Shown here: positions 26,065 to 26,608 of the stretch, piece by piece
How positions within the stretch are numbered: position 1 is the first letter of the stretch
Layout: every line of letters starts with the position of its first letter
Source of the DNA: Candidatus Gastranaerophilales bacterium
GTDB lineage: Bacteria; Cyanobacteriota; Vampirovibrionia; Gastranaerophilales; Gastranaerophilaceae
Direction of reading: 5' to 3'
Assembly: GCA_944326545.1 (NCBI GenBank)
Contig: CALVEH010000005.1
Location: forward strand, 62,001-126,000
DNA: 64,000 nucleotides
Made by a program: the position numbers and the translations under genes
The notes under the pieces: generated by a model
The model's database searches: none
What the model was told of the DNA's origin: nothing
Seen by the model: the letters and a program-made list of their open reading frames with translations, nothing else

Positions 26065-26116
26065 ATTATACAAAACTCATTATACGATTGCAACTCGACA
26101 GCAGATGAGTTATACT
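26065..26116. promoter_or_regulatory. divergent promoters sharing one -35 hexamer
   Basis: The palindromic hexamer TTGCAA (26088-26093) reads the same on both strands. On the plus strand it is followed by 17 bases and TATACT (26111-26116), for hpf. On the minus strand it is followed by 17 bases and TATAAT (26070-26065), for the GH13 gene. Both spacers are exactly 17. Confidence 0.7.
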
Positions 26117-26147
26117 TAGTAAGTATCATTATTATTGGAGGCAATAC

Positions 26148-26513
26148 ATGCGCATTCACGTAAACGGAAAAAATATTGAAATCACTGATGCAATTAAAGC
26201 TTACACTAAGGAAAAGATTGGTAAAGTAGCTACTCATTATGACCAAATTGAAGCTATTGACGTTATGTTAACAGTAATTAAAAATCCTAGTGTTGCAGAA
26301 AACCACACAGCAGAAGTAACTTGTAAACTAGTTACAGGTTCTGTTCACGTAGCTGAAACTGCTGAGTCTATGTATGCAAGTATTGACCTTGTTGCTGATA
26401 AATTGGCAAGACAGGTTAAAAAGTTCAAAGATAAAAATCTTGGCAAATCAAAATTAGATTCTATCAGAACAGGCGCTGTAGCAGAAGAAGTTGCTGAAGA
26501 ATCAGCTGAATAA
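26148..26513 (+). CDS. hpf: ribosome hibernation promoting factor, short form
   Basis: Binds the 30S subunit and, in other bacteria, stalls ribosomes in stationary phase. The HPF/RaiA domain fills about residues 1-100 (MRIHVNGKNIEITDAIKAYTKEKIGKV, then TAEVTCKLVTGSVHVAE). The C-terminal tail is short, acidic and low-complexity. The 121-residue length puts it with short HPF/YfiA rather than the long form with a dimerising domain. GGAGG precedes the ATG. Transcription probably excludes that of the divergent GH13 gene because the two promoters share a -35 box. Confidence 0.9.
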   Translation: MRIHVNGKNIEITDAIKAYTKEKIGKVATHYDQIEAIDVMLTVIKNPSVAENHTAEVTCKLVTGSVHVAETAESMYASIDLVADKLARQVKKFKDKNLGKSKLDSIRTGAVAEEVAEESAE

Positions 26514-26524
26514 AATTGTCTGAG

Positions 26525-26608
26525 AAAAATTTGCGATAATGAACGTGAGCAAATTTTTGAAGTGACACTTTGAAACGGTGGTAAACGGGCGGAAATGTTC
26601 AGTTTGCC
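26525..26608 (+). ncRNA. structured 3' region of hpf, possible small RNA
   Basis: In the 242-bp gap after hpf, AAAAATTTGC (26525-26534) pairs perfectly with GCAAATTTTT (26549-26558). A G-rich stretch is then flanked by GGTAAAC (26580-26586) and GTTTGCC (26602-26608), which pair with one G-U. A strong terminator follows at 26636. This is either a long 3' untranslated region or a small RNA; I do not recognise a family. Confidence 0.35.

Follow-up and report, generated by a model that had tools for sequence, protein, structure and literature searches.

Back-to-back divergent promoters that overlap usually have two different -35 boxes, which themselves overlap or lie side by side, often together with a shared operator. 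In the bidirectional promoters described by Warman, Grainger and colleagues, the -10 element is shared and near-symmetrical, and the divergent transcription starts lie 10, 18 or 23 bp apart (PMC12825309). In five bidirectional promoters of E. coli, the two directions did not compete at the basal level of activity; activation of one of them was needed before competition became clear (PMC12825309).

Here, we report an analysis of an intergenic region that separates the gene for a ribosome hibernation factor (hpf) from a divergent gene of the glycoside hydrolase family GH13, and in which one palindromic hexamer appears to serve as the -35 box on both strands. The window, that is, the whole stretch of 64,000 nucleotides analyzed, comes from a gut-dwelling bacterial genus related to cyanobacteria, which its named relatives assign to Candidatus Gastranaerophilales. 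Our main reading, to which we assign a probability of about 0.7, is that these are real overlapping divergent promoters of the housekeeping sigma factor sharing a single -35, that docking of the polymerase on them is mutually exclusive, and that the hexamer was captured from the GH13 promoter. From the observed sequence, its conservation, a natural split of the hexamer in one genome, the -35 boxes of outgroups and the recurrence of the design at other gene pairs, we infer the use by polymerase, the exclusion and the capture. The features on which the argument turns are the following.

26148-26513, + strand: hpf, short ribosome hibernation-promoting factor, 121 aa (PF02482, TIGR00741)
26117-26147, + strand: hpf leader with a GGAGG ribosome-binding site and a AAGTATCA-type start
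26111-26116, + strand: TATACT, predicted -10 of the hpf promoter, 17 nt from TTGCAA
26094-26110, + strand: hpf-side spacer, 17 nt
26094-26100, no strand: CTCGACA, conserved stretch in the hpf spacer, adjoining the -35
26088-26093, no strand: TTGCAA, palindromic hexamer, proposed -35 of both promoters
26087-26071, - strand: GH13-side spacer, 17 nt
26065-26070, - strand: TATAAT, predicted -10 of the GH13 promoter, 17 nt from TTGCAA
26026-24440, - strand: GH13-family secreted alpha-glucan-type enzyme, 528 aa (PF00128, PF16657)

The hpf product is a typical short HPF of the HPF/YfiA (LrtA) kind, scoring 84.1 bits against TIGR00741 (cut-off 40.9) and 80 bits against PF02482 (cut-off 23.7). The start of its leader (26121-26130), where a AAGTATCA-like sequence directly follows the -10, is conserved in several other genera as well as in the genus itself, which might point to regulation at the transcription start. 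Downstream of hpf, positions 26541-26585 are part of a short dispersed repeat, of which about 40 bp are matched at 84-90% in 9 further places of the genome. The GH13 protein matches PF00128 partially (positions 54-160; 31.1 bits, cut-off 22) and PF16657 at 31.7 bits (cut-off 27), and the motifs GIRADVA, EASE and THD, candidates for the catalytic Asp/Glu/Asp motifs, are visible by eye in its translation. Only general alpha-amylase models were passed and no specific one, so "starch-type" is a guess, and the link between ribosome hibernation and starch-type glycan use that the preliminary description drew is unproven. A search of the area against Rfam gave nothing above the gathering scores.

The intergenic region reads ATTATA-17-TTGCAA-17-TATACT, exactly, to the base, as the preliminary description had it; one hexamer thus stands 17 nt from a -10 box on each strand, between divergent genes. 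In a promoter scan, 9 of 12 consensus positions were matched by the hpf promoter and 10 of 12 by the GH13 promoter, TTGCAA itself agreeing with TTGACA at only 4 of 6 bases. Single promoter-like matches often arise by chance (in 2 kb, 9 against 7.2 expected from shuffles), so that the scan alone is weak proof and conservation is the test. The full pattern ATTATA-17-TTGCAA-17-TATANT occurs once without mismatch in the 2.19-Mb genome. Another candidate -10 for GH13, a TATAAT at about 26084-26079 on the minus strand, was rejected as it is not conserved among relatives.

We searched for hpf in 99 related genomes and read its upstream DNA in 70 of them; the GH13-hpf pair is present in 21 genomes of the genus. 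In the alignment of 20 of these 21, the three hexamers do not vary at any of their 18 bases, and each spacer is exactly 17 nt long. By contrast, the adjacent GH13 leader is nearly random at about 0.5 bits per column, and identity of the GH13 protein to the copy in the window falls to about 61%; the arrangement is thus conserved beyond its surroundings. When the 383 family genomes were searched with the pattern, the shared hexamer was also recovered in 3 genomes of one sister genus (g19) and 4 of another (g33), in which the GH13 spacer measures 17 or 18 nt. Hence the hexamer and both spacers, for which conservation in relatives had been proposed as a check, are kept throughout the genus with one exception and near-exactly in the sister genera (27 of the 28 genomes compared). 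Two further genomes have no hpf match and so do not test the architecture: G002 also lacks a GH13 orthologue, and in G017 the contig stops 107 bp upstream of the GH13 gene. Directly upstream of that gene in G017 (L230) lies a stretch that by eye resembles the dispersed repeat at 26541-26585. Judged from these alignments, the shared-hexamer arrangement is not a product of chance.

The one exception is informative. In G021, a 13-bp tandem duplication (ATTGCAACTTGCG/ATTGCAACCTGAT) has produced two copies of TTGCAA: 17 nt separate the left copy from the GH13 -10, and 17 nt likewise separate the right copy from the hpf -10. In a tree based on both proteins, G021 branches within the genus, and the two sister genera fall outside it; as these carry the single hexamer, the shared state is older and the split derived. 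That each promoter keeps a TTGCAA at 17 nt is what would be expected if both use the hexamer, and both promoters look real; by the same comparison, sharing of the hexamer is dispensable. The preliminary description had regarded related genomes with two separate -35 boxes as evidence against it. Such a relative exists, as 1 of the 21 genus genomes, but its duplication preserves both 17-nt spacings, so that the necessity of sharing is undermined and the identity of the promoters is not. The proposal that TTGCAA is the -35 common to both promoters is backed by this natural split together with the conservation.

Outside the clade, the two genes have different upstream elements. Elsewhere in the order, HPF/YfiA (LrtA) genes have a TTTAAA-17-TATAMT promoter and mostly other upstream neighbours, unlike the gene in the window. 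Of 47 genomes from across the order, 33 have TTTAAA 17 nt from a TATA-type -10. This count is somewhat generous, because three hexamers were considered as the -35 and the best one was taken, a choice that favours TTTAAA in AT-rich DNA. This TTTAAA, with its TATA[AC]T -10 (for example, L031-L070), is itself a palindromic -35, and TTTAAA-17-TATA[AC]T could be a distinctive class of hpf promoter. GH13 orthologues unlinked to hpf, sampled as one per genus from 26 genera, are preceded by TTGC..-17-TA...T in 15 cases, one of them doubtful (L253), against a mean of 0.39 and a maximum of 4 in 500 dinucleotide shuffles; five of the 15 carry TTGCAA itself. Given TTTAAA at hpf elsewhere and TTGC.. at unlinked GH13 genes, the GH13 promoter is the probable source of the shared hexamer. 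In the simplest history, the GH13 gene would have reached its place upstream of hpf in an ancestor shared by the three genera, and hpf would then have lost its own TTTAAA, reading the GH13 palindrome from the opposite side.

The same design recurs at unrelated divergent gene pairs in the family. The right-spacing pattern is present in 129 of the 383 family genomes, and identical hexamers at wrong spacing in 59; the latter served as the control in place of the built-in reversed pattern, which is poorly matched in composition. Among sites whose surroundings were read, taken from the matches listed and not as a random draw, 26 of 70 with the right spacing lie between divergent open reading frames and 23 in coding sequence, compared with 1 and 38, respectively, of 50 with the wrong spacing (divergent placement, Fisher P 1.3e-6, related genomes not being independent). 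Three of the 26 are the hpf/GH13 pair and the rest are unrelated pairs, for example, one pair found in three genomes (L104, L105 and L108), and those at L113, L293 and L294. If the G000 genome is taken by itself, no such excess is seen (7 matches to TTGCAA-17-TATAMT against 5 in the wrong-spacing control). Palindromic hexamers can match TTGACA at no more than 4 of 6 bases, since the position pairs 2/5 and 3/4 lose one each, and TTGCAA is the 4/6 palindrome that retains TTG; this ceiling predicts both the repeated use of TTGCAA and a limit on promoter strength. There is an even chance, in our estimate, that the self-complementary TTGCAA -35 defines a distinct recurrent class of bidirectional promoters, separate from those with a shared -10, comprising some 20 unrelated pairs in Gastranaerophilaceae and able to arise when a rearrangement lets one gene capture the -35 of its neighbour.

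The geometry of the site suggests how the two promoters would interact. Region 4 of the sigma factor reads the -35 as double-stranded DNA, to which TTGCAA would present an identical surface both ways; since the hexamer is self-complementary, binding by region 4 is possible in both orientations, and a docked polymerase would be led either to TATACT (hpf) or to TATAAT (GH13). From the -10 boxes, starts are predicted at about 26123 (+) for hpf and 26058 (-) for GH13, some 65 bp apart. The usual polymerase footprint extends from about -55 to +20, so the two footprints would overlap by some 45 bp, leaving room for one polymerase at a time. Mutually exclusive docking is, on this footprint geometry, a sound structural inference. 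Such exclusion would give at most a mild negative coupling, growing when one promoter is strongly active. The further claim of the preliminary description, that the site is a built-in switch needing no regulator, is unsupported: exclusion matters only if one promoter is near-saturated, the bidirectional promoters of E. coli compete only when strongly active, and the conserved CTCGACA suggests a further factor. A literature search found no promoter study and no transcription-start or binding data for Gastranaerophilales.

Several other readings of the site have to be weighed against ours. It is very improbable that only one promoter is real and the other a chance TATAAT-like match in AT-rich DNA: the scan does find about as many promoter-like sites as the shuffles, but neither -10 box varies in any of the 20 genomes, in contrast to the adjacent leader, and the duplication in G021 has left the 17-nt distance intact on both sides. 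A much stronger contender, which we consider a toss-up, holds that the region is simply compact, one palindromic -35 serving both genes in a short AT-rich region with no regulatory meaning and with negligible competition at normal activity. The five E. coli bidirectional promoters, too weak to compete at basal activity (PMC12825309), fit this explanation, as do the loss of sharing with retention of both promoters in G021 and the recurrence of the design at many unrelated gene pairs. What it leaves unaccounted for is the retention of sharing, with near-exact spacers, in 27 of 28 genomes, which would be needless if a second -35 were easily gained.

The remaining alternative concerns CTCGACA, which, seen from the GH13 promoter, lies just upstream of the -35. 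Within the genus, CTC is conserved in 20 of 20 genomes and GACA in 19 of 20, and CAAAA beside the GH13 -10 is conserved as well; core promoter elements explain neither, and the conserved block might, from its sequence, be partly an operator. CTCGACA could be bound by a local regulator, or it could give the polymerase an additional contact at the GH13 promoter. We think it somewhat unlikely that the site is a regulated bidirectional promoter in which TTGCAACTCGACA is (also) a factor site, repressing hpf from within the spacer and activating GH13 from beside its -35, so that the switch would need a regulator. The conservation of a stretch that is neither -35 nor -10 speaks for such a factor, as do inverted repeats present here in some relatives (for example, CAACTCGACACGAGTTG in G001) and the behaviour of E. 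coli activators, which at bidirectional promoters typically increase the transcript of one direction and reduce that of the opposite direction (PMC12825309). On the other hand, the inverted repeat is not conserved in form, the sister genera keep only CT after TTGCAA, and no regulator gene lies beside the hpf/GH13 pair; CTCGACA with the hexamer in front of it is unique in the genome, and the 12-mer TTGCAACTCGAC occurs there once with one-mismatch relatives at the control level, so that no regulon is visible. One more specific candidate, an operator of AACTC/GAGTT half-sites, was set aside: relatives differ in both the spacing and the symmetry of these half-sites, and the GAG that precedes the hpf -10 fits a general G/T-rich lead-in of other hpf promoters.

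Overlapping divergent promoters with a shared, captured -35 thus remain our preferred reading, and their relation to the known systems can be stated. With conventional back-to-back promoters, the site has in common divergent genes, overlapping polymerase footprints and a short intergenic distance; it differs in that a single hexamer stands exactly 17 nt from both -10 boxes. Narrow literature searches, weak evidence of absence, returned no description of a single shared palindromic -35. Comparison of the 27 genomes that share the hexamer, the one with duplicated copies and the outgroup genera with a different -35 for each gene provides natural tests, and the evolution of divergent promoters and their competition become testable by such comparison and with simple reporters. 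The likeness to the promoters of Warman et al. lies in the symmetry of a core element, which would allow binding in either orientation, one binding event excluding the other, and divergent mRNAs. The difference is that here the -35 is shared and fully palindromic, whereas the -10 boxes (26065-26070 and 26111-26116) are separate and the starts are predicted about 65 bp apart, as opposed to 10, 18 or 23 bp. The hpf/GH13 site is not a member of that class, yet it follows the same principle: bidirectional promoters in bacteria have so far been described through symmetry of the -10, and the present case extends the idea to the -35.
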